DNA of 59,082 bases from Gammaproteobacteria bacterium (GTDB lineage Bacteria; Pseudomonadota; Gammaproteobacteria; Xanthomonadales; SZUA-36): NCBI GenBank assembly GCA_021772935.1, contig JAJFLA010000029.1, positions 1 to 59,082 on the forward strand. Reading direction: 5' to 3'. Shown here in pieces: positions 6,601 to 59,082 of the stretch; position 1 is the stretch's first letter, and each line of letters begins with the position of its first letter. Made by a program: the position numbers and the translations under genes. The notes under the pieces were generated by a model that saw nothing but the letters and a program-made list of their open reading frames with translations, was not told the DNA's origin and made no database searches.

Positions 6601-6687
6601 GGGTAAATCGCAAGGTCTTAGTCACTATATTAAGACTCAGGCCGGTGTGAACAGGTCCCAAAGTAATATTATGGAAAAAAGTTAATC

Positions 6688-7860
6688 ATGAAGAAAATCC
6701 TGTTACTCATTGTCATTGCCGTAGTCGTGCCGTTTGCAGCAATGGCTCAACCACTACCACCACCCAAGGGCATGCCAATACCGGCGGCGCCGACATTGGG
6801 TGCAAACAGTCACATTCTTGTAGATTTCAACAGCAGCCGTGTGTTGGTTGAGAATAATTCGGATATGCGGGTTGAGCCTGCCAGTATTACCAAGGTAATG
6901 ACGAGTTATGTGGTGTTTACGGAGCTGGCCAGTGGCAATATCAAGCTGAGTGATGCGGTTGTTGTCAGCGAAACAGCCTGGCGTACCGGTGGTTCTCGTA
7001 TGTTCATCGAGCCCTCAATGGACGTGACGGTTGAACAATTAATCAAGGGCATGGTGATCCAATCAGGTAATGATGCCAGTGTTGCACTGGCGGAGCATCT
7101 TGCTGGCACAGAAAGTGCCTTTGCCGATTTGATGAACCATTACGCCACGCAATTGGGCATGACAAACAGCCACTTTATGAACGCGACTGGTTTGCCGCAA
7201 GAGGATCACTACACCACGGCTCGAGACGTTGCGATATTGAGCATTGCATTGATCGCTCAGTTCCCGGAGTTTTATCACTGGTATTCAGAAAAAGAATATA
7301 GTTTCAATAATATACGACAACATAACCGTAATAATTTATTGTGGCGAGACCCTGCGGTTGATGGCCTGAAAACCGGCCACACACAAGCTGCAGGGTACTG
7401 TTTGGCTTCCTCAGCCAAGCGTGATGGTATGCGTCTGGTTAGCGTGGTACTGGGTTCCAGCTCGGAGTCATCGCGTGTCAGCGAAAGCCAAAGCCTGCTC
7501 AACTATGGTTTCCGCTTCTTTGAAACGGTCCAGTTATACAAGGCTGGTCAGGAACTGGCGCAAGGTAAGGTTTGGAAAGGGGAAGAAGAGCAGATAAGGC
7601 TGGGTATCCAGGACGAGTTGTTTGTCACCATACCGAGAGGCCGCTACGATGACCTCGACGCGCGGGTTGAGATGCGCTCGGAATTGATTGCGCCGATCGC
7701 CGAGGGTGACGAAGTCGGACAGATATCCATTCGTCTTGAAGACGGTGAGATTGCAAGTCGTAGCCTGGTTGCTCTGGAATCAATTAATGAGGCTGGCTTC
7801 CTGGGTCGCGCATGGGATGGCATGAGCATGTGGGTTAGCGGTCTGTTTGGTGATGATTAA
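6688..7860 (+). CDS. dacA: D-alanyl-D-alanine carboxypeptidase (PBP5/6 type)
   Basis: Trims the terminal D-Ala of stem peptides in the periplasm. 390 aa. Signal peptide (MKKILLLIVIAVVVPFAAMA), then the penicillin-binding motifs PASITK (serine about residue 66), SGN and DGLKTGH, the PBP5 C-terminal beta domain, and a terminal amphipathic stretch (GFLGRAWDGMSMWVSGLFG) that would attach it to the membrane surface. GGAAAAAAG before the ATG is a usable ribosome site. The stop TAA shares its last A with the start of the next gene, linking wall and lipoate genes as in many gammaproteobacteria. Confidence 0.95.
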   Translation: MKKILLLIVIAVVVPFAAMAQPLPPPKGMPIPAAPTLGANSHILVDFNSSRVLVENNSDMRVEPASITKVMTSYVVFTELASGNIKLSDAVVVSETAWRTGGSRMFIEPSMDVTVEQLIKGMVIQSGNDASVALAEHLAGTESAFADLMNHYATQLGMTNSHFMNATGLPQEDHYTTARDVAILSIALIAQFPEFYHWYSEKEYSFNNIRQHNRNNLLWRDPAVDGLKTGHTQAAGYCLASSAKRDGMRLVSVVLGSSSESSRVSESQSLLNYGFRFFETVQLYKAGQELAQGKVWKGEEEQIRLGIQDELFVTIPRGRYDDLDARVEMRSELIAPIAEGDEVGQISIRLEDGEIASRSLVALESINEAGFLGRAWDGMSMWVSGLFGDD

Positions 7861-47860: not shown

Positions 47861-48964
47861 TCACGGCTGATGGATAACACCGAGTAAAACCGGCTTAGAT
47901 GCACCGGTTATTGGTGGTGTGTTCTGCACTGACTCGTTCAGTCTTTCACGTGCCAGCCACGCAAATAACGAGCCTTCCACCCAGTCGGGATCAGCCCCAT
48001 ATCGGGATGTGGACTCTACCACCACATCCGGTAATGCGGCTGCCAGCCTGCGCATCAGAAAGGTATTGTGTACACCGCCACCGCATACCAACAGACGTTT
48101 GGGCAAACCAGCTTCGGTGAGACTGATGGATATGCTTTGTGCGCTTAATTCAAGCAAAGTGGTCTGAACATCCACTTCTGCTCGCGCTGTATCGGCCAGC
48201 ATGTTTTCCAGCCAGGTGATATTAAAGTGTTCAAGCCCGGTGCTCTTGGGTGACGACCGTTTAAAGTAGGGGTCTGCCAGCATGCGCTGCAGCAGGTCAG
48301 GGTCCACCTGGCCTTTTGCAGCCCAATGTCCATGGTCGTCATAATCTTTTTGCAGGTGACGTTGGGTCCAGGCATCCAACAGGCAATTACCGGGGCCGCA
48401 GTCAAAGCCTGAGACACCGCCATTGGCAGGTAAAATCGTAAGGTTGGCGATCCCACCGAGGTTGAGAATTGCACGGTCTTCTTTTTCGCTGTGAAATAGA
48501 CGTTGATGAAATAGTGGTGCTAACGGTGCGCCCTGACCACCGGCTCTGAGGTCTGCACTTCGAAAATCAGTTACCACTGTTGTACTGGTGTTGCGGGCGA
48601 TTAAAGTGCCTTTTCCCAGCTGGATAGTGACTGGCCTGTCACCCTGAGGTTGGTGCCAGACATTTTGACCGTGTGAGCCAATGGCCCGTATGTCGCCCAT
48701 CTCCATGCCGGCTTCATGTACCAGATTTTGTGCGATGCGTGCGAACAAACGCCCAAGGTTTTCGTCCAACAGCTTGGCCAGCTGCTCGCTAGGCGGGGCA
48801 CCGGTGGCAAGCAGTTGATCAAGCGTCAGCTTGATAGCGGCTGGGTAGGGTATACACGAGGCGTGCAAAATATCCATTGAGCCGTGACTGAAATTTACCA
48901 GCACGGCATCCACGCCATCCCGGCTGGTACCGGATAACATTCCGATGATCAGCTCTTCGTTCAT
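47861..48964 (-). CDS. anmK: Anhydro-N-acetylmuramic acid kinase
   Basis: Phosphorylates and opens anhydroMurNAc to MurNAc-6-phosphate in murein recycling. 367 aa (E. coli 369). Features visible: GMLSGTSRDGVDAVLVNF (ATP phosphate loop), IGSHGQNVWHQP, the catalytic GFDCGPGNCLLDAW and the LLVCGGGVHNTFLMRRL end. It overlaps the M23 peptidase gene by four bases, the usual anmK-mepM pairing of gammaproteobacteria. Confidence 0.95.
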   Translation of the reverse strand: MNEELIIGMLSGTSRDGVDAVLVNFSHGSMDILHASCIPYPAAIKLTLDQLLATGAPPSEQLAKLLDENLGRLFARIAQNLVHEAGMEMGDIRAIGSHGQNVWHQPQGDRPVTIQLGKGTLIARNTSTTVVTDFRSADLRAGGQGAPLAPLFHQRLFHSEKEDRAILNLGGIANLTILPANGGVSGFDCGPGNCLLDAWTQRHLQKDYDDHGHWAAKGQVDPDLLQRMLADPYFKRSSPKSTGLEHFNITWLENMLADTARAEVDVQTTLLELSAQSISISLTEAGLPKRLLVCGGGVHNTFLMRRLAAALPDVVVESTSRYGADPDWVEGSLFAWLARERLNESVQNTPPITGASKPVLLGVIHQP

Positions 48965-50331
48965 GGGCTACTGGTTGCGTACATCGAAGCTGATTCCAGC
49001 CGGTTCAGTCGTGATAGCAGCGGGCTGGTCTTCTTCCGGAACTCAGCTATCTGTGTTTCAGCCAATGGGTTGGCCGGGGGTAGTGCGATGGTGCGCGGAT
49101 TGCGGTGAACGCCGTTGAGTAAAAATTCATAGTGTAGATGCGGGGCCTGCGCCAGACCGGTGGAGCCTACATAACCGATGACCTGTCCCTGTTTGACCCG
49201 CTGGCCTTTTTTGACCGTACGGTTGGTGAAGTGCAGGTATTTGGTAACAATGCTGTTGGCGTGTTGAATAAACACGTGGTGGCCATTGTATTTGCTATAG
49301 GCCGAGCGAATAACCTTGCCATCACCTGCAGTAAACACTGGCGTGCCTTTGGGTGCCCTGTAGTCAATACCGTTGTGGGCTTTGACCCGTTTCAGTATCG
49401 GGTGATAGCGCTTTGGGTTGAAGTTGGAACTGATATAAGAGAAATTCAGTGGAGCGCGCAGGAAAGCTTTGCGCATATTGTTCCCATCAGGTGCAAAATA
49501 TTGGGCATGGCCATCGACATCAAATCGTATGGCCTGGAATTTTTCACCCTGGTTGATGAAGGTTGCACCGATGATTTCGCCATCACGCAAAAAGCTACCA
49601 TCCCGGTAAATTTTTTCATACACAAGGTAAAACCGGTCACCCTCACGAATGTCGAGAACAAAATCGATGTCCCAGCCAAACAGATTTGCCAGTTTCATCA
49701 CCATGCCATCATTGAGACCAGCTTTTTTACCCGCCAGAAACAACGATGATGTGATGGTACCGCTGGTTTCAGTGGTTTCCGTGATCATGTCGCGGGTTTT
49801 GGTGCTCGCAAAGGCTTGTTGCCCGTCGTGTTTGATGATCAGGTAACGGTCCTCATCGATGGCGTAGCGCATGCGTTTGAGTGATTTGTCTTCGTGACGT
49901 TGGAATTCGAACAGCTCACCGGGGCGTATTTTCTTTAGCTGTTGAGTCTCTTTGTTTAGCGCTAACACTTCGTGCAGTGTTTTTGCACTGAAACCCTGTT
50001 GACGAAAGATACCGTCCAGCGACTGTCCGGCGTCAACGATGACATCCTCCCATTGCTCAATTGGGTGGGCAGTCGTGATGGCAGATTCATCGCCAAAGCT
50101 TGCGGGAATGGTGTTTCCGGGTGGAATCTGAAAATCGAGTCGCTCGGGCAGGTTCAGATTGACTATTTTGTTGGCAACAGTTTTATCATCAGTACGGCTT
50201 TCAAAAGCACCCAAAGCGATACCAAAGATAATGAGCGTCAGGGCAAACACGAATAGTTTGGTTCGGTTCAGCTTGAAGTGAAACCGCTGTGATGTCTTGG
50301 TCAGGTTTGAAAAGAAATTCATATTTTGCAT
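48961..50331 (-). CDS. mepM: M23 family murein endopeptidase (MepM-like)
   Basis: 456 aa. One membrane segment (KLFVFALTLIIFGIALGAF), an OapA/LysM-like region (VIVDAGQSLDGIFRQQGFS), and a C-terminal LytM domain with zinc ligands in HNGIDYRAPKG (H and D) and HLHYEF. It cleaves D,D-crosslinks during wall growth. In related genomes tyrS follows on the far side; here the cassette array begins 200 bases from its start, so the array occupies that place. ATG 50331 or 50322 may be the start. Confidence 0.92.
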   Translation of the reverse strand: MQNMNFFSNLTKTSQRFHFKLNRTKLFVFALTLIIFGIALGAFESRTDDKTVANKIVNLNLPERLDFQIPPGNTIPASFGDESAITTAHPIEQWEDVIVDAGQSLDGIFRQQGFSAKTLHEVLALNKETQQLKKIRPGELFEFQRHEDKSLKRMRYAIDEDRYLIIKHDGQQAFASTKTRDMITETTETSGTITSSLFLAGKKAGLNDGMVMKLANLFGWDIDFVLDIREGDRFYLVYEKIYRDGSFLRDGEIIGATFINQGEKFQAIRFDVDGHAQYFAPDGNNMRKAFLRAPLNFSYISSNFNPKRYHPILKRVKAHNGIDYRAPKGTPVFTAGDGKVIRSAYSKYNGHHVFIQHANSIVTKYLHFTNRTVKKGQRVKQGQVIGYVGSTGLAQAPHLHYEFLLNGVHRNPRTIALPPANPLAETQIAEFRKKTSPLLSRLNRLESASMYATSSP

Positions 50332-50534
50332 GCTGCATATTGACCATCAGAGAAGTTGTGCGTTCAGGCAACGCTAAAAATACCACACGATACCAAATTT
50401 GGCTGTGGCTGACATCACGGTGACCAACATGGTTTGGCCTAAAACAACAGGAGAATTTTGTTAATAAGCTGGCATTAATTGCTGTGTATTTCCAGTTGTT
50501 CGATGTTTGCTTGGTGAGTGTCGTGACTCTATGC
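50332..50534. other. Left boundary between mepM and the cassette array
   Basis: 203 bases with no gene. It must carry the mepM promoter, although I see no clear hexamer pair. It is the chromosomal sequence beyond the oldest attC. No duplicated ends or second recombination core were found here. Confidence 0.4.
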
Positions 50535-50592
50535 ATAACGGTTTAGTTAACCGGCGCCAACATCGCTGGCGTCCGTGTTAATTACTTGTATG
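50535..50592 (-). repeat. attC-1 (subfamily B, degenerate R'')
   Basis: ATAACGG at one end and CTTGTATG at the other with the hairpin GGCGCCA-ACATCGC-TGGCGTCC between. It matches attC-9 and attC-12 closely, but the R'' core reads TTGTATG instead of TTGTTATG, which may stop recombination. It is the last site of the array. Confidence 0.85.
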
Positions 50593-50604
50593 GTTGTTGA
50601 TTCA

Positions 50605-50940
50605 TCACACATTATCTCCTGCAATACTTCTATCAATTTGCAAGAATTCTATTGGTGCTCCATTATCTTCGATGAACGCAACAACTACTCCAGGACTTGG
50701 GCTATTCGGCTCAATTATGACATTCTTGCCTTTTAGCACCTTTTCCAAATCATCCACTTCGAATGCTATATGAGGAATTGTTTTCACCAGGTCCGGATAA
50801 GGAGCATCATCTTCGAAACGATTCCATTCAACACCATATGGACTTCTACCGAAACCACTCACGTACATTTTTAAATCTTTGAGGTGTTCTTCATCTCTAA
50901 GTTTATTCTTAGTTGGGATACCCAAATGATGAAACTTCAT
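50605..50940 (-). CDS. Cassette 1: VOC (glyoxalase/bleomycin-resistance fold) protein
   Basis: 111 aa. The N-terminal MKFHHLGIPT and the C-terminal strand APIEFLQID are the paired beta-alpha-beta-beta-beta ends of a vicinal-oxygen-chelate domain; IPHIAFEVDDLEKVL is the second module start. Candidate metal ligands are H5 and the glutamate near the end. Members include dioxygenases, epimerases and antibiotic-binding proteins, and the reaction here cannot be told. ATG 50940 has AGGAG nine bases before it. The stop is 12 bases before attC-1. The neighbouring cassette also encodes a VOC protein, but the two are not close copies. Confidence 0.82.
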   Translation of the reverse strand: MKFHHLGIPTKNKLRDEEHLKDLKMYVSGFGRSPYGVEWNRFEDDAPYPDLVKTIPHIAFEVDDLEKVLKGKNVIIEPNSPSPGVVVAFIEDNGAPIEFLQIDRSIAGDNV

Positions 50941-50977
50941 TGCCGTCAACTCCTAAATTCAAATGCTGACCCGGCAC

Positions 50978-51035
50978 ATAACGCCTAGCCTAAACCACCG
51001 AGCGGTAGCGAGGTCGATTTGAGGCACTGGTTAGG
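50978..51035 (-). repeat. attC-2 (unique type)
   Basis: TAACGCCTAGCCTAAAC at one end and GATTTGAGGCACTGGTTAGG at the other are imperfect inverses, around AGCGGTAGC. The R'' core is CCTAAC, as in class 1 cassettes. The stop codon of the next gene is the TAA inside it. Confidence 0.85.
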
Positions 51036-51432
51036 AGCCGGGCCAGATAAATTCAATGCGAATTCCTCCCGGCTCATTAAAAATCATGTGTTTTCGTGGG
51101 CCTATACCAACGAGCTCTGGCATAAATTCAATTTTGACACCTGGATACGCTTTTACTTTTTCCGCTATTTCGTTAAGTTCCTCTTCTGAACTCACTTCAA
51201 GTGCAAAATGGTGAAGGCCTATATTTTGCCTGAACTGAAATTCGTTAACTGGAAGGTTATGGTCTACTTCCCAAAGCGTTAGGCGTATGCAACCGTCTCC
51301 TACAGCAGAACGAGGGTAGCTTTCGTCTCTTCCTGATTCCTCCCAACCTAAGCAGTCGACAAAAAATGAAACTGCCCGGTCAAGATTTTTGACTGAAAGC
51401 CCGAGGTGATTTATTCCTTGGGTTTTGTACAT
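51031..51432 (-). CDS. Cassette 2: VOC-family protein
   Basis: 133 aa, a full VOC domain: GINHLGLSVKNLDRAVSFF at the start, GLHHFALEVSSEEELNEIAE for the second module, and the closing FNEPGGIRIEFIWPG. Metal-ligand candidates are H9 (INHLG), H of GLHHF and E of RIEFI, the classic glyoxalase-I-like H/H/E set. The closest general type is glyoxalase or fosfomycin-resistance-like protein; the substrate is unknown. GGGAG lies five bases before the ATG. Its stop TAA is the one inside the R'' box of attC-2. Confidence 0.85.
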   Translation of the reverse strand: MYKTQGINHLGLSVKNLDRAVSFFVDCLGWEESGRDESYPRSAVGDGCIRLTLWEVDHNLPVNEFQFRQNIGLHHFALEVSSEEELNEIAEKVKAYPGVKIEFMPELVGIGPRKHMIFNEPGGIRIEFIWPGS

Positions 51433-51441
51433 TTTATCTCC

Positions 51442-51525
51442 CTAACGCCTTGCTAACGGGAGTAAAAATGCGCAGCATTTTTGCATCCCAGAGAGCGAAG
51501 CGAACGAGTTGAGCAACTTGTTATG
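51442..51525 (-). repeat. attC-3 (unique type)
   Basis: CTAACGCCTTGCTAACGGG and CGAGTTGAGCAACTTGTTATG are imperfect inverses. The middle has the hairpin AAAAATGC-GCA-GCATTTTT. 84 bp. Confidence 0.88.
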
Positions 51526-51536
51526 GGTCGTTTTAT

Positions 51537-51680
51537 TCACGTAGATTCGTCTACCGGGGATTTTTTGGTTTGAGTTTTTGCATTGCTCTGATCTATTTTT
51601 TTCAGAAGCTTTTCTTTCTTCTTTTTCTTTTTCGCGTTTTCCTTCTGTTGTTTTTCAAATGTGTAGTTAGTTTTTGCCAT
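51537..51680 (-). CDS. Cassette 3: 47-aa lysine-rich small protein
   Basis: MAKTNYTFEKQQKENAKKKK at the start, then more Lys and a KSPVDEST ending. About a third of residues are lysine and the middle is predicted to be one long basic helix. Small proteins beginning M-A-K/S-x-N-Y-x-F-x-K-R/Q-Q-K-E are, as I recall them, common in environmental gammaproteobacteria and of unknown role; nucleic-acid or ribosome binding would be a guess. It ends 11 bases before attC-3. It is below usual gene-finder length limits. Confidence 0.6.
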   Translation of the reverse strand: MAKTNYTFEKQQKENAKKKKKKEKLLKKIDQSNAKTQTKKSPVDEST

Positions 51681-51789
51681 TAAAATTCTCTTATCTAAAT
51701 TTACGTGTTAATTAAAGAGGAATTATTTTTTCACAATAGAACCTTTCTTATTTTGGTTTACTTCGAATATAGATACATGATTAATACAC

Positions 51790-51849
51790 ATAACGATTTA
51801 GTAAAGCGGCGCCGCTTTGCTTTGCCTCAAGCTCGCACCATAGTTGCAC
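51790..51849 (-). repeat. attC-4 (degenerate)
   Basis: The R' side ATAACGATTTAGTAAAGCGGC is canonical and pairs over AAAGCGGC-GCCGCTTT. The R'' side is weak: GTTGCAC at 51843-51849 is the best candidate. It may be a damaged site. Confidence 0.55.
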
Positions 51850-51903
51850 GGCAGTAGAACCAACTCGAAGATCACGAATTATCATGCGACTCCCCAAAGA
51901 ATC
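51850..51903 (-). other. Cassette 4: mini-cassette without a recognisable gene
   Basis: Only about 54 bases lie between attC-4 and attC-5. On the minus strand the recombination-core ATG opens MILWGVA and a stop, which overlaps by ATGA a second frame beginning MIIRDLRVG that runs through attC-4 for 34 codons into cassette 3. It may be a deletion remnant of a larger cassette. Confidence 0.4.
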
Positions 51904-51971
51904 ATAACGATCAGCTAAGGGGTCCCCTGGTCGCTCAGCGTCCCGTGAGGCACCTTGAGCGGCAAGTTATG
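51904..51971 (-). repeat. attC-5 (unique type)
   Basis: ATAACGATCAGCTAAGG and CCTTGAGCGGCAAGTTATG are imperfect inverses around a GC-rich middle. 68 bp. The thioredoxin-like gene reads through it to a TAG at 51915. Confidence 0.87.
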
Positions 51972-52382
51972 TAACCAACTTTCGATTTTAGTTTGACCCA
52001 AGTTACCTTTGCCTACGTTCGTATAGTGCCAAGAGTAGCCCATAAGCCTGTCCAATTCATTTGCGTCAGCATCCAGGGCCAGGAGCGTAGGCGCAAACTT
52101 AACTTTGTACCGATCCTCAACAGTTGTACGTTTCAGTTCCATTTCAATTTTAGAAGTAACAAACATTTCTTCAATTTGTGCCGATATTTGTGGGTTTTCA
52201 AGATCTTTTTCGAGTACTCGACAAGGTTGGCAGTGCTCCATGGAAAAGTACACAAGAATTTGTTTGTTTTGCGCCCTGGCAGATTTTTTGAGCGTGTCTA
52301 TCTCGACATGTTGCCAATTACTATTATCCATACATGCGGCTAGTATCAAAACCAATGGCAAGATGGTGGCACTTTTAAACAT
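51915..52382 (-). CDS. Cassette 5: thioredoxin-like lipoprotein
   Basis: 155 aa. MFKSATILPLVLILAACMD is a signal peptide with lipobox LAAC, so a periplasmic lipoprotein. LVYFSMEHCQPCRVLEKDLE carries a CQPC redox pair on a thioredoxin strand-helix, and VKFAPTLLALDADANELDRLMGY includes the cis-Pro-like turn (APT). It probably reduces or isomerises disulfides or monitors redox. The start ATG is the recombination-core ATG of attC-6 itself, with no leader of its own. The last 18 residues (from HNLPLK) are encoded by attC-5. The frame upstream through attC-6 is also open but is not lipoprotein-like. Confidence 0.82.
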   Translation of the reverse strand: MFKSATILPLVLILAACMDNSNWQHVEIDTLKKSARAQNKQILVYFSMEHCQPCRVLEKDLENPQISAQIEEMFVTSKIEMELKRTTVEDRYKVKFAPTLLALDADANELDRLMGYSWHYTNVGKGNLGQTKIESWLHNLPLKVPHGTLSDQGTP

Positions 52383-52469
52383 AACGTCTGAATTAACCGG
52401 CGTGCGTGCCGACGTTTCCGCGGAAACACGCCGCCGCACTTTCACGCGTCCGGTTGAATGATTTGTTAG
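52381..52469 (-). repeat. attC-6 (subfamily A)
   Basis: ATAACGTCTGAATTAACCGG and CCGGTTGAATGATTTGTTAG flank a GC-rich foldback with TTTCCGCGGAAA. 89 bp. Very similar to attC-10 and attC-14. Confidence 0.92.
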
Positions 52470-52783
52470 TTCTCACGTCCACCGCCCCTCTTCAGCTTGC
52501 TTGCGCGAAGTCGTTGTTTACTCCGCATTACATGCAGAATGTAGACACAATCATCATCATGGCGATAAAAAACCCGACACGGCGGTTCGACAATTTGACG
52601 ATAGTCCCAACCTTCAAGCTCAACTGGTTTTGAACCGCTTTCAGGGTGATCTGTTAGTTGCTCAGCATGTTTGAAAATTCTGCGCACCAACTTCTGTGCT
52701 GCAACTGGATTCTCTAAGGCAATAAAATCTGCTATTGCGTCAAGATCAGAGAGCGCCGGTTCGGTCCAAATTATTCCAACCAT
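52466..52783 (-). CDS. parE: Cassette 6: RelE/ParE-type toxin
   Basis: 105 aa. The ParE fold is visible: IIWTEPALSDLDAIADFIA at the start, FKHAEQLTDHPESG, and the C-terminal strands YRQIVEPPCRVFYRHDDDCVYILHVMRSKQRLR. Such toxins poison gyrase or, in RelE relatives, cut mRNA; which one applies cannot be told. It follows the antitoxin with a 13-base overlap. Its stop TAA is inside the R'' box of attC-6. Confidence 0.9.
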   Translation of the reverse strand: MVGIIWTEPALSDLDAIADFIALENPVAAQKLVRRIFKHAEQLTDHPESGSKPVELEGWDYRQIVEPPCRVFYRHDDDCVYILHVMRSKQRLRASKLKRGGGREN

Positions 52784-53028
52784 CGAGACATTCTGGATTT
52801 TGCGTCTTCGTGAGAAAGGGTCCGACCATCTTCAATCGCACGTTCCCCACGGGCAATGCCTTCGAGAAGCTTTAATCTCCTTTTTAAGCCTTCGAAGCTA
52901 TCTACATCAACCAGGTAAGCAGAGGGAAGACCGTGTTGAGTAATCAGAATTGGCTCTTTGTCACGAGATAGTTCAGAAAGTAATTCCGTTGCTTTTCGTT
53001 TTAGCGTAGTTACTAGTTCAGTTCTCAT
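52771..53028 (-). CDS. Cassette 6: Phd/YefM-type antitoxin
   Basis: 85 aa. LKRKATELLSELSRDKEPIL followed by ITQHGLPSAYLVDVDSFEGL is the Phd/YefM DNA-binding and dimerisation domain; the C-terminal helix (GRTLSHEDAKSRMSRWLE) should wrap and inhibit the toxin. It would also repress its own promoter. The promoter -10 ends six bases before the ATG, so the mRNA may have no leader. Toxin-antitoxin pairs are frequent cargo of sedentary integrons, where they are thought to stabilise arrays. Confidence 0.9.
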   Translation of the reverse strand: MRTELVTTLKRKATELLSELSRDKEPILITQHGLPSAYLVDVDSFEGLKRRLKLLEGIARGERAIEDGRTLSHEDAKSRMSRWLE

Positions 53029-53034
53029 GATGTG

Positions 53035-53063
53035 ATACTAAAGTAGCACATTGATTGATGCAA
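53035..53063 (-). promoter_or_regulatory. Promoter of the toxin-antitoxin cassette
   Basis: On the minus strand TTGCAT (53063-53058) and TAGTAT (53040-53035) are 17 bases apart. The start point would fall at or next to the antitoxin ATG (53028), predicting a leaderless transcript. An internal promoter fits the rule that TA cassettes do not depend on Pc. Confidence 0.6.
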
Positions 53064-53075
53064 GCACGAGTGAAG

Positions 53076-53167
53076 CTAACGGTTTAGTTAAGCGGCCCAG
53101 AAAGGCGCAGCCTTTTTGGGTCCGGTGGAGGCGCGTAGCGCCGTAACGTACTTGAACGCTTTGTATG
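53076..53167 (-). repeat. attC-7 (subfamily C, degenerate R'')
   Basis: CTAACGGTTTAGTTAAGCGGC at one end and GTACTTGAACGCTTTGTATG at the other. The R'' core lacks one T of GTTATG, as in attC-1. 92 bp. Confidence 0.88.
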
Positions 53168-53198
53168 TATATTTGCACTCGCTGTAATTGGCAAGCAC

Positions 53199-53909
53199 TC
53201 ATAAAACAGCACCGTTAATCTTCATGCGTTTTGCATTGCAACAATCGGTATATTTGCGCCAGTCCCAATGACCATCAACCTCATAAACGTCCGTTACACC
53301 AAATTTTGCCATGTCTTCAATAGAAAAATCGAATCCTACAATTGGGTCTGCAGTAAAAAATGCTCCGAGACGCGACCAAAATGAATATCGGTTAAGGCCA
53401 TATGTTGTTATCCGATGGTCAACTTTGATTTTTTTAAAAAATTCGATTTCACGCTTCCTCAAAGCAACAAAGTATTCAATACCTTGACGATGTAATTTAT
53501 CAATATTTTTTTGCCAAGAACTGCCGTGCCAGAAAATTATTGAGTTTTTATTAAGCCCCTTTCGATTCGCTGCTGTGAATATATAGTTGGCGCAAGATGA
53601 CAAGCACGCCTTTTCAATAACAACACTCAGGTTATTGTCATAAATCCAATTGCCAACATCCAGGCCCAACAACACGTCACCCCCACCACTGGATATTACA
53701 AGCGTATCGGGTTTGACTGTTGCCTGCTTAAAAAGGGAATACAGTAGTTCGTTACTATCCGCATCTAGAAGTCCTTCATAGTGGAGCTGATTACCGTCAT
53801 CAAGAAACACGGTTGTTGAAGGCTCAGGTGTGTCAGTATTTGACCCCGCACATGATGCAAGAAACAAGATTACAATCGCTAACGTGAGTATGTTAGCAAG
53901 CGATCTCAC
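53199..53909 (-). CDS. Cassette 7: lipoprotein with Clp/crotonase-like fold
   Basis: 236 aa. Lipobox LASC after a signal peptide. Residues about 65-115 (LVISSGGGDVLLGLDVGNWI then ACLSSCANYIFTAANRK) follow the ClpP/SDH-type serine protease pattern: a Gly-rich turn (SGGGD) and the putative nucleophile in LSSCANY. The putative base His in FWHGSSW is further on. Activity is uncertain. The start is GTG 53909. The recombination-core ATG of attC-8 opens a three-codon leader (MYQ) whose TGA lies two bases before this GTG, suggesting reinitiation. Confidence 0.75.
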   Translation of the reverse strand: MRSLANILTLAIVILFLASCAGSNTDTPEPSTTVFLDDGNQLHYEGLLDADSNELLYSLFKQATVKPDTLVISSGGGDVLLGLDVGNWIYDNNLSVVIEKACLSSCANYIFTAANRKGLNKNSIIFWHGSSWQKNIDKLHRQGIEYFVALRKREIEFFKKIKVDHRITTYGLNRYSFWSRLGAFFTADPIVGFDFSIEDMAKFGVTDVYEVDGHWDWRKYTDCCNAKRMKINGAVL

Positions 53910-53920
53910 TTCACTGATAC

Positions 53921-54000
53921 ATAACGTTTTAGTTAAGCGGCGCAGCGTTGCTACGTCCGGTGGAGCCAGCTTGCTGGCGGAACTTAAACGCTTTGTTATG
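53921..54000 (-). repeat. attC-8 (subfamily C)
   Basis: ATAACGTTTTAGTTAAGCGGC and GGAACTTAAACGCTTTGTTATG around the CCAGC-TTG-CTGG hairpin. 80 bp; closest to attC-13. Confidence 0.92.
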
Positions 54001-54679
54001 TTTTAATTTTGCCGCCAATTTTGACTCGTTTCGTGATTGTTAATGGATGCCAGGAATCTACTTGCCCAAGCCTTCGCTCAGATGGAGTTGCGTAGATAAC
54101 AAGTACGGATAATGCCCCAACGGTATAAAACCAAGCAGCATAAACACACTTACCTTCAATAGATTCAACTTCCATATCAGAATACCCAGTATCTACCCCG
54201 TTACTTTCCCAAAAAGCCAAATACACATTTTTAACTGATTTTTCGTTAAGTAGGCTTTTTCTAAATTGGTCGATATCGATTGATACCTTATTCTCAACTA
54301 TTGCACACCCAAATAATTTGACGAAATATAGATGCACCCTAAGCATTGATATCTTCACTGAACCGGGGAAAACCTTTTCTAGTTTTATGATATCCCCCTT
54401 TTTAATAGGTGGACTCTTCTGTAGAAGATAATTTGATAATTTTCCCCACGCCCTGTCAAATTTAGATGTTCTTGAATTGTTGCATGGGCCACACATAGGA
54501 GCATCTGATTTCAAACGAGGGTCCTTCTTTATGCTTTTTAACTTTACATTTTTATCTTTTTTCGTGTGAAGATATAGCGGTGAGGTTTGAGAGACGTGGC
54601 CAAAGAGAGATTTTAGGTCAGATTTCTTAATTAAGTGCTCCCCTGTGCTTCCGTTATTTTCACATATCCAACAGTTCAT
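53996..54679 (-). CDS. Cassette 8: HNH-like zinc-finger protein
   Basis: 227 aa. CWICENNGSTGEHLIKKSDL followed by MCGPCNNSRTSKFDRAW is the CxxC - EH - CxxC(NN) layout of HNH-type nuclease domains, with the His of GEH as the candidate catalytic base and two CxxC pairs for structural zinc. The C-terminal 130 residues are unrecognised. HNH proteins of this kind occur in phage-defence systems, but no partner gene is present. AGGGGG lies five bases before the ATG. The stop is the TAA in the R'' box of attC-8. Confidence 0.75.
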   Translation of the reverse strand: MNCWICENNGSTGEHLIKKSDLKSLFGHVSQTSPLYLHTKKDKNVKLKSIKKDPRLKSDAPMCGPCNNSRTSKFDRAWGKLSNYLLQKSPPIKKGDIIKLEKVFPGSVKISMLRVHLYFVKLFGCAIVENKVSIDIDQFRKSLLNEKSVKNVYLAFWESNGVDTGYSDMEVESIEGKCVYAAWFYTVGALSVLVIYATPSERRLGQVDSWHPLTITKRVKIGGKIKT

Positions 54680-54696
54680 CGGTGCCCCCTTAAAAC

Positions 54697-54756
54697 ATAA
54701 CGTTTGAGTTAACCGGCGCCAGCATCGCTGGCGTCCGCGTTTAATGATTTGTTATG
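54697..54756 (-). repeat. attC-9 (subfamily B)
   Basis: ATAACGTTTGAGTTAACCGG and GTTTAATGATTTGTTATG around GGCGCCAGC-ATC-GCTGGCGTCC. 60 bp; nearly the same as attC-12. Confidence 0.93.
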
Positions 54757-55389
54757 TCTGTCCAGTACGGCCTCAGTGCTCACACCTACCAACGGGTGGT
54801 TGCAGTCCTTGATCTCAGGGTGTTTCTTGAGTGTCCGGAACACGAATCTACTCCTTGTCCAAGCAAGTAGTTTACCTAACAATCCAGCTTGGCTCGTTAC
54901 ACATCTTATCAGCTGGGCCTGTGCCATGATGTGGCCTCTGAGGGCGGCATCTTCGTAATACTCCCTAGCAGTGTCTATGCACTTGGATACACCAATTCCC
55001 TTTTCATACATTTGGCCCAATGCAAATGAAGCGCCAACCTCACGATCCTTAATCGATTGGAAATGTTCAAGCGCCTTAGATTGTTCTTGCTCAGATGCAG
55101 ACTGAAGATAGATTCTACCAAGCCCCAAATTGGCGGCAGGATGACCGGCGTCAGATTCGATTGATCGCCGATACCAACTAGCAGCCTTGTCCAGATCCAG
55201 AGAAACATCACCTTTCCCAAGTTCGTAGATGTTTCCGATTTCTAGGAATGCCGGTTCGAATCTCGCCTCTGCCAATTTTTTGAACTCGTTTAATGCGGCG
55301 GAATATCGCTCTGCCTCAAATAGTCGCGTTGCTTCAAGCCAGTGACTCTCGACAGCCTCAAAGTCTAATTGGTCGTGATCAACTGACAT
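54709..55389 (-). CDS. Cassette 9: Sel1-like repeat protein
   Basis: 226 aa without signal peptide. Sel1-type repeats can be read from about residue 40 (FLEIGNIYELGKGDVSLDLDKAASWYRRS, then ANLGLGRIYLQ, FALGQMYEKGIGVSKCIDTAREYYEDAALRG - quoted in parts as repeat starts LEIGNIYE, LGLGRIYL and LGQMYEKG). Such solenoids mediate protein contacts, often in envelope or effector settings. The start ATG is the recombination-core ATG of attC-10. The last 15 residues, HNKSLNADASDAGAG, are encoded by attC-9. Confidence 0.82.
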   Translation of the reverse strand: MSVDHDQLDFEAVESHWLEATRLFEAERYSAALNEFKKLAEARFEPAFLEIGNIYELGKGDVSLDLDKAASWYRRSIESDAGHPAANLGLGRIYLQSASEQEQSKALEHFQSIKDREVGASFALGQMYEKGIGVSKCIDTAREYYEDAALRGHIMAQAQLIRCVTSQAGLLGKLLAWTRSRFVFRTLKKHPEIKDCNHPLVGVSTEAVLDRHNKSLNADASDAGAG

Positions 55390-55477
55390 AACGTCTGAAT
55401 TAACCGGCGCGTGTGCCGACGTTCCCGCGAAAACGCGCCACCGCACTTTCCCGCGTCCGGTTGAATGATTTGTTATG
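55388..55477 (-). repeat. attC-10 (subfamily A)
   Basis: ATAACGTCTGAATTAACCGG and CCGGTTGAATGATTTGTTATG flank the long GC-rich foldback. 90 bp. Confidence 0.93.
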
Positions 55478-55912
55478 CGACGACATGTGTGCCATTTGAA
55501 ACTCACCAAGCCAGTCAGGTAATTCACCTGGCGGTAATTTCAACTCACATTTGTGTGACCTCTCACTGTGAATCCGCATCATTAAGTAAGTCGCCGTTTT
55601 CGGGTCCTCCACTGACACTCTCGTAATTTCGATAGTTTTTGATCTGTGACCGGTCCGCTGTTCCAGAGAATCTATAAGTTGAGTTGCAATCTCTGGTGTG
55701 GTCTTGCCTTCCGTCTCAAGCACAATATCTTTAAACAAAGTCACTTGCCCAGAATCCATGACCTGCCCAACTTCAACGAATCGCACCTGTGAGCCACACC
55801 CAACTATTTGAGCCTTTACGAATAAATAGTCACCTGTCGTAAAACTGTCAGCGTTCGCAACCGCCAATAAAACTACTGGCAGTGTTGCAAAAATTAGAAT
55901 CCATCTCTTCAT
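55400..55912 (-). CDS. Cassette 10: secreted protein of unknown function
   Basis: 170 aa. Signal peptide MKRWILIFATLPVVLLAVANA. The mature part (TGDYLFVKAQIVGCGSQ, VEVGQVMDSGQVTLFKDIVL, TTPEIATQLIDSLEQRTG) has the rhythm of a polysaccharide-export/SLBB-like domain, but this is a weak likeness. Two cysteines (in VGCGS and HKCEL) could pair. The last 25 residues, from HNKSFNRTRES to GTRAG, are encoded by attC-10. The ATG lies 14 bases inside the cassette. Its TAA is ten bases before the start of the cassette 9 gene. Confidence 0.72.
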   Translation of the reverse strand: MKRWILIFATLPVVLLAVANADSFTTGDYLFVKAQIVGCGSQVRFVEVGQVMDSGQVTLFKDIVLETEGKTTPEIATQLIDSLEQRTGHRSKTIEITRVSVEDPKTATYLMMRIHSERSHKCELKLPPGELPDWLGEFQMAHMSSHNKSFNRTRESAVARFRGNVGTRAG

Positions 55913-55921
55913 AAAATTAGC

Positions 55922-56014
55922 CTAACGTTTGAGTTAAGCGGCGTAAAACTGCGCAGCAGTTTTATGTCCGGTGGAGGGCCGTAGGCCCGGAACGAACTTG
56001 AACGATTTGTTATG
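55922..56014 (-). repeat. attC-11 (subfamily C)
   Basis: CTAACGTTTGAGTTAAGCGGC and GAACTTGAACGATTTGTTATG, with AAAACTGC-GCA-GCAGTTTT between. 93 bp. Confidence 0.92.
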
Positions 56015-56049
56015 CTTCAAACTCATCCTCAGTTTCCCAGCTGCATGCT

Positions 56050-57036
56050 TCAATCACAAAAAAGCTTCTTTATTTCATCCGCAGCCGATTCTGTGGCTGC
56101 CATAAACGCTTCCAGGCTTGCCGGATCGGAGAACATCATTCTCTGTTCTATCTTGGCCTTAATCTCAGCTTCCAGCCAAGGGCTGTTGAGTCCGCACTTT
56201 CTTGAAGCCAATAGAAAGTTCAAGCCTTGCATGTAGTTGGAAGGGGTAAATAAACCCGGCGTAAGAGCAGCATAACTCTGAGCAAACGCTAACACCCCTA
56301 AAGGTTCGCGTTCATCGGTATTGTTCCAAGTGTACTCTACAGCGTCATGTTGATATTCAAGCAGTTTAAGCGTGTCTTCAGACACATTCCCAGACTGCCT
56401 AGGAGGCCACAGAGCATATACGTACCGTGCTGTAACAATGCCGTTGTCTGCCAACAGTTTTATGCGATCGCGTAAATCATCCTCGAACAAGCTTTCAGCG
56501 GCTCGGCATTGATCATGTTTCTTCCATAGATGGGCTTCGAGTGATTCGAGACTGTCGAACAAAAACTGCTGACCATCGCCAAATGACAAGTACGTTTCGG
56601 AGGTAAACGTCATTTTGCTGAAATCGGCAAGGTATTTCTGAACATGGTCTTCTTTAAATCCAGAATTGCATTGCCTCATTAAGTTGCTTGTAGCAATTGC
56701 ATCCTCAGTGTTTCCACTCAACGCAGAATCTAGTTGTTTCTTCACAGATTCCTGAAACTCAATATCTACTTCATGATCGGTTTGTGCTATCTCGGCCGGG
56801 TTGCCGGGAACATGAGCTATAGTTTTAGCGTGTTTACCACCGGTAACTGACTCATCCGCCTGAACAGGGCTTGTTTCCGAAGCAGGAATTGCTTCACCGG
56901 CTGTATTAGCTATTTCGGGGATGGAACTGTCTGATTCTTTGGTATGAGCATTGTCAGAGTTGCGAATCCACACCCATGATATCGCCAACAATACCAAACA
57001 AACCAAGATCACCAAGCCAGGAATAAATTTTTTCAT
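56050..57036 (-). CDS. Cassette 11: membrane-anchored protein of unknown function
   Basis: 328 aa. One N-terminal membrane segment (GLVILVCLVLLAISWVWI), a low-complexity Ser/Glu/Ala linker to about residue 95, then a helical C-terminal domain with MRQCNSGF, KKHDQCRAAESLFEDDL, SRKCGLNS and KKLFCD. Four or more spaced cysteines suggest disulfides in the periplasm. The layout (anchor, linker, helical repeat-like domain) is the same as in cassette 13, although sequences are not alike. GGAGG precedes the ATG by four bases. It ends 35 bases before attC-11. Confidence 0.72.
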   Translation of the reverse strand: MKKFIPGLVILVCLVLLAISWVWIRNSDNAHTKESDSSIPEIANTAGEAIPASETSPVQADESVTGGKHAKTIAHVPGNPAEIAQTDHEVDIEFQESVKKQLDSALSGNTEDAIATSNLMRQCNSGFKEDHVQKYLADFSKMTFTSETYLSFGDGQQFLFDSLESLEAHLWKKHDQCRAAESLFEDDLRDRIKLLADNGIVTARYVYALWPPRQSGNVSEDTLKLLEYQHDAVEYTWNNTDEREPLGVLAFAQSYAALTPGLFTPSNYMQGLNFLLASRKCGLNSPWLEAEIKAKIEQRMMFSDPASLEAFMAATESAADEIKKLFCD

Positions 57037-57133
57037 ACATCCTCCGAAACAGAGCTAAACCAAATAAGAGTTGCCGTTAGGTCCGGTCTGTTTGATTAGT
57101 TGGTGATTCGGACGTATCTCGCCCATCAACTTT

Positions 57134-57162
57134 TTATTAACTATTGCTTTGCGGGTTGCCAA
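57134..57162 (-). promoter_or_regulatory. Candidate internal promoter of cassette 11
   Basis: On the minus strand TTGGCA (57162-57157) and TAATAA (57139-57134) are 17 bases apart, within the 133-base leader between attC-12 and the gene. Leaders this long are unusual in the array. Confidence 0.5.
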
Positions 57163-57169
57163 TGCAAGC

Positions 57170-57229
57170 ATAACGTCTGAATTAACCGGCACCGGCATCG
57201 CCGGTGTCCGTGTTTAATGATTTGTTATG
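57170..57229 (-). repeat. attC-12 (subfamily B)
   Basis: ATAACGTCTGAATTAACCGG and GTTTAATGATTTGTTATG around GGCACCGGC-ATC-GCCGGTGTCC. 60 bp; the hairpin has compensating changes relative to attC-9 (both arms altered). Confidence 0.93.
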
Positions 57230-57631
57230 CTTTTTTTCCGCCAATCGAACGAACAGCACGTAAAAAAGTGGAATCGTCAGTGTCCAGATAATCGGCAACG
57301 CAACACTAAAGAAATCGTAACTGAGAAGAAAAAAATGTAGTAGAGAGGCTAGCGCTAAAATACTGGCAATCGAATAGAGCAAAATGCGGCGTGGTTTCAA
57401 CAACACCATAAGTCCAGCAACGATTGAGCCGAAGACAATAAACCGGAGAATGTCATAAATGAAAGCGACTGGCCGTATATTTTCTCGGTCAAAGACTTCC
57501 GTTATAGCTCCAAGGACCGACATACTATTCGTATCCATATAGAACCCCAGCGACATCATCGCCCATAGTGCAACAACGGACAGAATGGCCGATATCAGGC
57601 AGTTAACGATGATCCTCAGTTTAATAAGCAT
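57182..57631 (-). CDS. Cassette 12: four-helix membrane protein
   Basis: 149 aa with about four membrane segments (ISAILSVVALWAMMSLGFYM; FIVFGSIVAGLMVLL; ILLYSIASILALASLLHFFLL; VALPIIWTLTIPLFYVLFV). No family recognised. The start is the recombination-core ATG of attC-13 (no leader of its own). The last 15 residues, HNKSLNTDTGDAGAG, are encoded by attC-12, and its TAA is ten bases before the core ATG of the next cassette. Confidence 0.75.
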   Translation of the reverse strand: MLIKLRIIVNCLISAILSVVALWAMMSLGFYMDTNSMSVLGAITEVFDRENIRPVAFIYDILRFIVFGSIVAGLMVLLKPRRILLYSIASILALASLLHFFLLSYDFFSVALPIIWTLTIPLFYVLFVRLAEKKHNKSLNTDTGDAGAG

Positions 57632-57710
57632 AACGTTTTAGTTAAGCGGCGCCGTTAGGCGTCCGGTGAAGCCAGCTTGCTGGCGGAACGTACTTAAACG
57701 CTTTGTTATG
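57630..57710 (-). repeat. attC-13 (subfamily C)
   Basis: ATAACGTTTTAGTTAAGCGGC and GTACTTAAACGCTTTGTTATG around GCCAGC-TT-GCTGGC. 81 bp. Confidence 0.92.
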
Positions 57711-57788
57711 TGTTTCTTTGCCTAATTTCTTCATAGCAGCCTTCGCATATTGGCATTGTTTGTGCGTAGCATAGTATTTAGTGAACAT
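57642..57788 (-). CDS. Cassette 13b: 48-aa small protein with attC-encoded tail
   Basis: MFTKYYATHKQCQYAKAAMK then KLGKET and an attC-13-encoded tail HNKAFKYVPPASWLHRTPN plus GAA. Only the first 26 residues are specific to the cassette; they look like a basic helix with one cysteine. AAGGAGG lies eight bases before the ATG and inside the end of the upstream gene (GAAGGAGGATGA), so translation is coupled to it. Function unknown. The strong ribosome site makes expression likely. Confidence 0.65.
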   Translation of the reverse strand: MFTKYYATHKQCQYAKAAMKKLGKETHNKAFKYVPPASWLHRTPNGAA

Positions 57789-57792
57789 CGAC

Positions 57793-58590
57793 TCATCCTC
57801 CTTCGTGTAATTGTGCAATGATTTCATAGGCGTTACTCACTACCCACCTCTGAGTTTCAATATCCAATGTGCGGATATATGCTTCGACTGGCATTGCAGC
57901 AGAGAGATTTCCTTCCAAATAAGCTGCTAGGAACCAACTTGCCGTATCTCTATCATGAAATGGATCCATAGAGTGCCGTTGCCTTTGTACCGCGCCGTGC
58001 AATATCGGTTCCGATGAACCTGCCATTCTCGCGGACTCTATGGCGTAATAATCACCCTCGGCCCACCGTCGTGCAGAATATGCCGTGTTCGCTAACGCAA
58101 GCATGGCTGCTGGATCCCCCCCCTCCGCCAAGGCAACAATTTCTTCGAGCGTAGTGCTTTTGGAATATTTGTTTAACGAATCTGGGTCTCCTCGTTTATC
58201 TCCGGCCGGTGCATACATAAGAGACCATTCATTACCTTTTTCCGTAATTCCAGCCAGTCCCTTTTCCTCCATCTGCTGTTTCCAATCCTCGATGTCACTT
58301 TTGAGTTTTTCCTGCGATACGATCACCTCGATAACCGGCAAGAAGGGCTTGGGTGTATCCAATTGAAGCTGAGAGTGGGGATCAGGGTCTTGGGATGGGA
58401 GTGAAGAGGAATCATCGGTAGCCTGAGATCCAAGTTCATCTCTGACTGGTCGGTTTGACGCTCCTGAATTGTTTACTACCTTTTCAGCGCGTTGCATGAG
58501 TGGGTGCTCTTCGAATGACTGAGACGCAAAGAACAAGAACACGGCAATAACAATTATTAACGCCCCGTACACTGCGGAAAGTTTCTTCAT
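57793..58590 (-). CDS. Cassette 13a: membrane-anchored Sel1-like protein
   Basis: 265 aa. N-terminal membrane segment (LIIVIAVFLFFASQS), Ser/Asp-rich linker to about residue 85, then helical repeats (LEEIVALAEGGDPAAMLALA, AYSARRWAEGDYYAIESARM) that resemble Sel1 repeats, so a periplasmic helical scaffold. It ends ...LHEGG with the ribosome site for the following small gene inside its last codons. AAGGAAA precedes the ATG. Together with 13b this is a two-gene cassette. Confidence 0.75.
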   Translation of the reverse strand: MKKLSAVYGALIIVIAVFLFFASQSFEEHPLMQRAEKVVNNSGASNRPVRDELGSQATDDSSSLPSQDPDPHSQLQLDTPKPFLPVIEVIVSQEKLKSDIEDWKQQMEEKGLAGITEKGNEWSLMYAPAGDKRGDPDSLNKYSKSTTLEEIVALAEGGDPAAMLALANTAYSARRWAEGDYYAIESARMAGSSEPILHGAVQRQRHSMDPFHDRDTASWFLAAYLEGNLSAAMPVEAYIRTLDIETQRWVVSNAYEIIAQLHEGG

Positions 58591-58637
58591 CAGTATGTTT
58601 CCTTGGTCGACGACTTTTTTAGAAATTCAATTGTCAC

Positions 58638-58726
58638 ATAACGGCTGAATTAACCGGCGCGCGCACAAACGTTTCCGCGGAAACGCGCCACTGCACTTTC
58701 CCGCGTCCGGTTGAATGAATTGTTAA
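58638..58726 (-). repeat. attC-14 (subfamily A)
   Basis: ATAACGGCTGAATTAACCGG and CCGGTTGAATGAATTGTTAA flank the foldback with TTTCCGCGGAAA. 89 bp. The R'' core GTTAAA differs from the others at its last bases. Confidence 0.9.
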
Positions 58727-58766
58727 ATATTTTGGCCGAGACCCTGTTTGATGCTCTAAATGCCAA
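58650..58766 (-). CDS. Cassette 14: 38-aa ORF mostly encoded by attC
   Basis: TTG 58766 has AGGAGGGG nine bases before it. The frame reads MAFRASNRVSAKIF and then enters attC-14 in the usual frame (NNSFNRTRES to CARAG) to a TAA at 58650. Only 14 residues are specific to the cassette. It may be a decayed gene, or a minimal cassette that mainly supplies translation through the attC. Sixth case of the same frame through an attC. Confidence 0.45.
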   Translation of the reverse strand: MAFRASNRVSAKIFNNSFNRTRESAVARFRGNVCARAG

Positions 58767-58794
58767 TTGTGATCCCCTCCTATTTCAGCCTGAC

Positions 58795-58860
58795 TTGCTG
58801 CTAACGTCGCACCCACATGGGGTGGGTATTTCTACGAAGTGACACTGTAAGTGTATACCA
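58795..58860 (-). promoter_or_regulatory. Right end of cassette 14: possible attI and Pc
   Basis: GTTAGC (58805-58800, minus) is a recombination-core-like sequence at the start of cassette 14. Beyond it no matching R'' box or attC hairpin is seen, so it may be the attI crossover. ACCCAC-ATG-GGGTGGGT lies next to it. Further out TGGTATACA (58860-58852) is an extended -10 that would read into the array. All of this is tentative because the integrase is outside the window. Confidence 0.3.
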
Positions 58861-59082
58861 TCAATTTTAATGCTGAAGATTCGTTGATGACGATGCTGTT
58901 TGTACGGCTTTGTCATGTCGCAATCTTCTAACATGGTGAATGCCAAATATATATAACTACAATTAGGTGGAAAAAGTGCAGTTAATAGCTTTTTCTTTGG
59001 TTTTTTTCATATTATTTTTTATATGTTTTTGATTAATATATCTATTTGTTGAATTGTTACTGGTCGTTAACCGCACAAATTC
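58861..59082. other. AT-rich sequence at the window end
   Basis: 222 bases with no open frame of note on either strand and no second attC. If the integrase gene is nearby its start must be beyond 59082. Confidence 0.4.

Follow-up and report, generated by a model that had tools for sequence, protein, structure and literature searches.

Whether a cassette array without an intact integrase beside it was once a complete chromosomal integron, or never more than an integrase-less cluster, is the question raised by the right end of contig C22 (JAJFLA010000029.1). This contig of 59,082 nt is analysed at its full length and is referred to here as the window; it belongs to a draft gammaproteobacterial genome (GCA_021772935.1, here G000) of 3.96 Mb in 56 contigs. 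The last 8.5 kb of C22 contain 14 attC-like sites (50534–58928), all 14 on the minus strand, and the cassette genes lie on the same strand. The array is best read, with a probability of about 0.86, as a decayed chromosomal integron between mepM and tyrS, which has since lost its integrase and is one of several arrays in the genome. A sequence-only reading of this DNA had described an integron array of 14 sites beside anmK–mepM, a description that is upheld below, and had asked whether the array is a complete integron or an integrase-less cluster. As far as the draft assembly allows, the answer is a formerly complete integron with a decayed integrase. Nine congeners (G001–G009) serve as the comparison set; the stretches fetched from two of them, G005 and G006, show no difference from the metagenome-assembled genome records JAJRUM010000045.1 (9.3 kb compared) and QIKV01000192.1 (6.9 kb compared), respectively.

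The attI head and the mepM–tyrS locus

A predicted attI region is situated at the proximal end of the window array and is 95.4% identical over 130 bp to the C32 sequence between a full-length intI and its first cassette. The identity of the C22 and C32 attI regions stops at the G/TTA crossover. Two promoter-like sites at the attI end, against 1.4 expected in shuffled sequences, give no evidence of a promoter there. The end of C22 shares an overlap of exactly 76 bases with the right end of C45, and equally with that of C44; one 76-mer at three contig ends is expected where an assembler meets a repeat. Beyond the overlap, C45 carries an integrase remnant, a gene for a TPR/transglutaminase-like lipoprotein, and tyrS. 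The remnant comprises codons 1–72 of intI at 92% identity (tblastn), together with a 31-bp piece (97%) that is displaced, and it matches TIGR02249 at positions 1–57 only. An intact intI adjoining the attI of the window array was not found, the C45 remnant being all that stands there. The sequence-only reading had placed both attI and the integrase just outside the window; the attI in fact lies inside it, and the integrase is present outside as a remnant and not as a gene.

In eight of the nine congeners (G001–G008), mepM and tyrS are direct neighbours without an array, the matched ends lying approximately 60 to 240 bp apart, which confirms the earlier expectation that tyrS would be found in relatives at the position of the array. 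In G002, mepM is cut by a contig end, yet still lies beside tyrS, and in G009 no orthologous mepM was found. In G000, both ends of the congeners' mepM–tyrS intergenic sequence can be recognized by eye, one on C22 and the other on C45. The join of C22 to C45 is drawn from the 76-base overlap together with the mepM–tyrS synteny, and the adjacency of the two genes in eight of nine congeners therefore implies that approximately 10.4 kb are inserted in G000. The left end of the array is 203 bases from the mepM start, close to the 200 bases given in the sequence-only reading.

attC sites of the window array

Two covariance models of attC were used, with the box pairs set by hand in both; RNAalifold on the mixed attC subtypes returned no structure. 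Model R1 is built from 22 training sites, 12 of which come from the window, so that its results there are largely circular. Model R2 is independent of the window and is built from ten attC sites of C32 only. On the window, R1 gives 14 matches at E ≤ 0.58, two of which are halves of one long site, and misses the site at 58800. R2 on the whole 59 kb gives 12 matches at E ≤ 0.53, consisting of ten sites at E ≤ 1.6e-4 and the two long-site halves, and zero matches at E ≤ 10 in the remaining 50 kb. An unfiltered R2 scan, restricted to 50300–59082, gives 27 matches at E ≤ 10, including opposite-strand and chance-level ones, and adds the sites at 51441 and 50977 and part of the site at 58800 (58886–58918). 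Ten sites are therefore firm, and four (50977, 51441, 51789, and 58800) are weak by R2 or of other subtypes, within an array of one orientation with R and L boxes. Single-strand folding of the plus (bottom) strand was carried out for 13 of the 14 sites, leaving out the 188-nt long site. Five of the 13 have no shuffle that folds equally well, and the sites at 50976 and 58637 fold no better than their shuffles. No Rfam family is found in the window at the gathering threshold.

Genome-wide, R1 scored 150 of 991 first-look candidates, so that all counts are lower bounds. At E ≤ 1, at least 49 matches are obtained, of which 48 are clustered and one stands alone on C11; the clusters hold at least 11 sites on C22, 10 on C32, 8 on C19, 6 on C20, 3 + 3 on C41, 4 on C14, and 3 on C36, with cassette-like spacing and a single orientation within each cluster. 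A dispersed repetitive extragenic palindromic (REP) family, or another non-integron repeat, would likewise present short palindromic repeats many times over, and the sequence-only reading had named a genome-wide scatter of the sites outside arrays, or the failure of a covariance-model scan to recover most of them, as outcomes that would overturn it. Neither outcome occurred: the independent model recovers ten of the 14 sites, and the clustering, attC-type boxes, and attI at the head make such a repeat family a negligible explanation.

Integrases in the genome and its congeners

In G000, one full-length intI was found (C32:117314–118255), scoring 422 bits when read through its stop (cut-off 265) and followed by its own array. 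In the assembly sequence, the 328-codon frame of this gene is interrupted by a TAA at codon 211, and no stop-free integron integrase over the cut-off was found on the G000 contigs. Among the congeners, the intI orthologue of G002 has a frameshift and that of G008 retains the C-terminal part only, both downstream of atpC. In G003, the intI on C52 is reduced to 55 codons of the N-terminal end and, in a different frame, roughly the last 23. G005 and G006 contain intact integrases, about 60% identical over the whole protein, and G006 possesses a second, more distant one. No integrase match exceeds the cut-off in G001, G004, G007, or G009. In the sampled genomes, the loss of intI is therefore repeated within one genus. 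Nearly a third of intI genes are reported as pseudogenes, and more than one intI is reported in more than a fifth of integron-bearing lineages (PMC2426708); in Xanthomonas, the integron integrase was inactivated repeatedly (PMC12444791). The repeated loss in this genus agrees with both surveys.

The orthologous integron of G002 and G008 downstream of atpC (L038 5257–8350, L039 1–2990) occupies another locus than both of the G000 platforms described above.

Multiple attI heads

With the C32 attI as a query, matches in G000 are found on C32, C45, C22, C21 (90% over 268 bp), C44 (94% over 160 bp), and C41 (79%, 53 bp only). Furthermore, a search with a 21-base attI core, allowing at most three mismatches and using the reversed pattern as a control, finds eight cores in G000 (C32, C22, C21, C36, and four on C41) against 1 for the control. 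The nine congeners yield seven more (four in G003 and one each in G002, G004, and G006) against 0 for the control. The cores on G006 C15 and G004 C152, with three mismatches each and no attC match in the fetched stretch, were treated as chance. By alignment, family A consists of C32, C22/C45, C21, and G003 C52, as well as C44 by its overlapping tail, since that contig ends before the core; as C22 and C45 are one locus, the family has four loci in G000. Family B consists of three copies on C41, and family C of one on C41, one on C36, and three in G003. The assignment covers all eight G000 cores and the four of G003, and leaves the G002 core unplaced. Six of the eight G000 cores are followed within 800 bp by a model-found attC in the same orientation, and the other two (C21 and C41 copy c) by a half or interrupted attC seen by eye. 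On G003 C52, an attI and an intI remnant are present, but the 10 kb fetched there contain no attC match. Of the other G003 arrays fetched, those on C28 and C7 lack an attI core, and that on C10 has a four-mismatch match only.

Of intI, one family A copy in G000 retains every codon, a second about 72, a third about 22, and the fourth about 4 (18 by eye). On C41, copy b lies inside an array as a short unit without an evident open reading frame (ORF): an attC-like site seen by eye, and not by the model, precedes it (L142, about 3905–3955), the core is at 4065, and the next cassette follows. Copy c lies behind an attC of the opposite array. Among the entries listed in the literature searched, from which subscription journals were mostly absent, none was found to describe numerous arrays with attI heads in a single chromosome; broken integrases and integrase-less arrays are already known.

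Several further observations concern these heads and their surroundings. The family C attI of C36 and of the three G003 copies is overlapped by a short leader ORF after a Shine–Dalgarno-like stretch, which is reminiscent of ORF-11 of attI1. The C36 attI and array start lie about 1.6 kb downstream of a tmRNA gene (L141 1413–1773) with the tag ANDDNYALAA. A flank (70.5% over 1897 bp; L142 150–2236, L172 6288–8158) is common to the array on C41 of G000 and the one on C6 of G003, and yet these are headed by different attI families. A shared 23-base end of an insertion element (at most 3 mismatches) is present on five contigs, and by eye the element interrupts an attC at the contig end on C32, C21, C14, and C19; it may prefer attC as a target. 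At the right end of C21 (L145, about 6625–7005), within a gene that by eye is uvrB-like, the G+C content climbs from about 50% to 75%, which is probably an assembly chimera.

Cassette sharing between arrays

Across 24 stretches, matches of at least 150 bp were counted. Two cassette stretches of C32 (496 and 471 bp) are 95.8% identical to G003 C28, and 1006 bp of C20 match the same contig at 92.3%. Within G000, a BrnT/BrnA stretch is 86% identical between C32 and C41. The only shared stretch involving the window array is 204 bp in common with C20 at 87% (50615–50818, within the 114-aa cassette gene), and no recent sharing of the G003 kind was found for it among the stretches compared. Since mepM is 66% identical between G000 and G003, the values of 92–96% indicate that cassettes of the other arrays have moved recently.

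Origin and present state of the array

In the proposed course of events, a chromosomal integron would have inserted between the divergent genes mepM and tyrS. A working integrase would have added cassette circles at attI, at the right end, and pushed the older cassettes towards mepM, in this presumed order of capture. Later, the local intI would have been reduced to its 5′ remnant, and the full-length intI elsewhere in the genome would have gained its internal stop. A frozen array would then change only by ordinary mutation, or if an integrase arrived in trans, and the window array is probably in this state. The most likely origin of the additional heads is that the platform was copied at its attI end, together with a varying portion of intI, and that the copies then decayed. 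How they multiplied is less certain, although the family A copies look, from their sequences, like duplicated platforms with differing intI loss.

Several observations weigh against this account. The 92–96% identity of cassettes in other G000 arrays to those of G003 reflects recent cassette traffic in the lineage and therefore argues against a long-frozen state. No attI core is found for the C14, C19, and C20 arrays and the lone C11 site (at least six mismatches, in the fetched stretches); proximally, the C14 and C19 arrays meet an insertion element near a contig end. By sequence, C22 could join C44 as well, and only the mepM–tyrS synteny favours C45. Finally, an intact intI may lie in the unassembled part of the draft. 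The recent traffic also speaks for the idea that the array is still active, its cassettes shuffled by an integrase in trans or by read-through of the C32 stop. The C32 protein is otherwise complete, and suppression of an internal stop in intI2 restores activity (PMC2426708). However, no stop-free integrase over the cut-off was found in G000, and at 87% the one stretch that the window array shares is not recent, which leaves continued activity unlikely. A cluster founded by off-target insertion at an attG-like site, and never a complete integron, is one of three proposed origins of clusters of attC sites lacking integrases (CALINs; PMC8618304); such an insertion is not expected to bring an attI and a 5′ intI remnant, both of which are at the head of this array, so that this origin is very improbable here. 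An assembly or binning artefact, in which several strains or contaminant contigs mimic many platforms, could draw on the contamination estimate of 2.29% and on the G+C shift of C21, which suggests a chimera there. The contigs C32, C41, C44, and C45 nevertheless measure 54 to 340 kb, the copies deviate from C32 by 3–10%, which is much for strain variants of one locus, and G003 independently has four attI cores; an artefact is accordingly improbable.

The doubt is greater over the manner in which the heads spread. The extra attI sites might have moved through the integrase as attI-bearing cassettes, a tentative explanation that finds a likeness in C41, where copy b stands within an array after an attC-like site and copy c also follows an attC, and in the attI-type cassettes that recombine in class 1 and class 2 integrons (PMC12901181). 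The family A copies, however, hold parts of intI with different left ends, as duplication and decay predict, and none of the left boundaries is shown to be a crossover site. It is similarly conceivable, at about the same modest level, that the attI end is a multicopy dispersed element of the genus, whose units were copied or moved, some of them into arrays, and seeded arrays served in trans, until all froze with the failure of the integrase. If so, a former multi-attI system would be a direct route to CALINs.

Comparison with known integrons

Compared with the sedentary chromosomal integrons with an inactivated integrase (Xanthomonas ilvD, PMC12444791; PMC2426708), G000 likewise has an attI, an attC array, and an intI broken by a stop, frameshift, or deletion. 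Unlike in those cases, the attI end of a single platform family is present at four G000 loci, the eight attI cores of the genome fall into three families, and no intact integrase was found. By gene content (at least two attC and no adjacent intact integrase), the window array fits a CALIN, but an attI is still present, as is the 5′ intI remnant on the neighbouring contig; an origin by integrase loss is therefore directly readable. In a Shewanella prophage (PMC9892861), an attI also heads an array without its own integrase; one such array is described there, together with an intact IntI, whereas several exist in the G000 chromosome and none of the integrases found is intact. The Delta-attI-type cassettes of class 1 and 2 integrons (PMC12901181) resemble C41 copy b in placing an attI inside an array after a recombination site, which for copy b is the attC-like site seen by eye. 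In those cassettes an ORF precedes a usually truncated attI, whereas copy b is short and without an evident ORF. In the integron remnant of Treponema phagedenis (PMC3607928), attC sites and cassettes are kept and intI is lost, as in the window; that study centred on attC and left attI out of consideration because of its lower conservation.

Cassette cargo

Pfam assigns a family to 5 of the 13 window ORFs (a ParE toxin, a Phd/YefM antitoxin, a VOC protein, a thioredoxin-like protein, and a Sel1-repeat protein) and none to the other 8. PADLOC gave no match for the 10 of the 13 scanned, and NCBIfam gave matches far below cut-off only for the 8 scanned. A specific resistance enzyme was considered for the VOC protein and rejected, as all 17 NCBIfam models listed are far below their cut-offs. 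In C32, five of the six cargo ORFs scanned match families: TfoX_N, BrnT, a CopG antitoxin (below its cut-off), HicB, and Phd/YefM.

Table 1. Positions of the window array, its flank, and related sites. Plain positions refer to the window; those with the prefix L refer to other stretches.
Feature	Position	Strand	Evidence and remarks
mepM, left chromosomal flank of the insertion	48961–50331	−	66–74% identical in seven congeners; 55-aa end piece in G002
attC, last, degenerate R'' end	50534–50594	−	R2 E 1.6e-4
Cassette gene, 114 aa, VOC-like by eye	50605–50949	−	No Pfam match
attC, other subtype, weak	50977–51036	−	R1 E 3.8e-5 (in training set); R2 unfiltered E 1.4
VOC (glyoxalase) superfamily gene	51031–51432	−	PF00903 E 3.4e-14
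attC, other subtype	51441–51526	−	R1 E 4e-8 (in training set); R2 unfiltered E 0.046; fold z −3.8
attC, long, weak, two half matches only	51789–51972	−	R1 E 0.0048, 0.58; R2 E 0.26, 0.53
Thioredoxin-like gene, end inside the long attC	51915–52382	−	PF13899 E 1.7e-8
attC	52380–52471	−	R2 E 2.5e-9
ParE-type toxin, same cassette as the antitoxin 52771–53028	52466–52783	−	PF05016 E 2.4e-19
Phd/YefM-type antitoxin	52771–53028	−	PF02604 E 7.9e-13
attC	53075–53169	−	R2 E 2.2e-13
Cassette gene, 236 aa	53199–53909	−	Sub-threshold ClpP-related NF045542 only (E 0.0057, 16.6 bits vs cut-off 120)
attC	53920–54001	−	R2 E 1e-15
Cassette gene, 227 aa, stop codon is the TAA of attC	53996–54679	−	ORF; no Pfam family
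attC, 62-bp subtype	54696–54757	−	R2 E 2.1e-9
Sel1-repeat protein, attC-encoded tail NKSLNADASDAGAG	54709–55389	−	PF08238 E 3.4e-12
attC	55387–55478	−	R2 E 1.9e-10
Cassette gene, 170 aa, attC-encoded C-terminus	55400–55912	−	ORF and attC phase count
attC	55921–56015	−	R2 E 1.9e-12
Cassette gene, 328 aa	56050–57036	−	ORF; no Pfam, PADLOC, or NCBIfam assignment
attC, 62-bp subtype	57169–57230	−	R2 E 1.6e-8; fold z −4.2
Cassette gene, 149 aa, membrane-protein-like by eye, tail NKSLNTDTGDAGAG inside the next attC	57182–57631	−	No Pfam match
attC	57629–57711	−	R2 88.9 bits, E 5e-17
Cassette gene, 265 aa, N-terminal hydrophobic segment by eye	57793–58590	−	No Pfam, PADLOC, or NCBIfam match
attC of a short cassette that lacks a convincing gene	58637–58728	−	R2 51.4 bits, E 8e-9; fold at shuffle level
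attC, degenerate, weak, first cassette after attI, without a convincing gene	about 58800–58928	−	GTTAGC-type end, placed by eye; R2 unfiltered E 0.54 for 58886–58918 only; beats all 200 shuffles in folding
Predicted attI region	58953–59082	−	Crossover about 58956/58957; core 58954–58974; runs on into C45
62-bp attC, examples outside the window	L012 8281–8342; L142 3119–3180; L139 4537–4598; L174 2034–2095; others		
Family C leader-ORF sites	L141 3300–3393; L171 3100–3171; L172 5546–5620; L173 4613–4690		
23-base insertion-element end	L012 about 12245; L145 about 110–132; L143 about 54–76; L139 about 6481; L140 about 5636		

A 62-bp attC subtype and a shared C-terminal tail

The positions of ORF stops were counted for all 126 model matches in the fetched stretches (55 in G000 and 71 in the congeners). 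In the 62-bp attC family, which has 19 sites including one 91-bp site caught by the pattern, 13 ORFs cross the attC in one phase. Their tails mostly end like NKSLNTDASDAGAG, and the proteins are otherwise unrelated. In the rest of the family, 5 ORFs stop before the attC and 1, which belongs to the 91-bp site, terminates at the R'' TAA. In the case of the other 107 attC, 30 ORFs stop at the R'' TAA, 56 before the site, 4 in the tail phase, and 5 elsewhere inside, and 12 sites have no ORF. With similar proteins counted once, the tail phase is used by 11 of 12 ORFs stopping inside an attC of the subtype, against 4 of 35 for the others (Fisher p 8e-7, for a subtype defined post hoc). The 62-bp attC has no match in viral contigs (exact pattern) or in plasmids (blastn). 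Among the entries listed in the literature searched, with subscription journals mostly outside the search, no attC-encoded shared tail was found reported. Such a common tail bears on how cassettes are made.

Implications

The origin of integrase-less arrays is an open question, for which three routes have been proposed (PMC8618304). In the window array, the loss of the platform is readable as the route, since the head keeps its attI and a truncated integrase lies next door. The repeated attI cores suggest a way to seek such origins elsewhere. Furthermore, the genus provides a natural series, from the intact integrases of G005 and G006 to the variously broken copies in G000, G002, G003, and G008.

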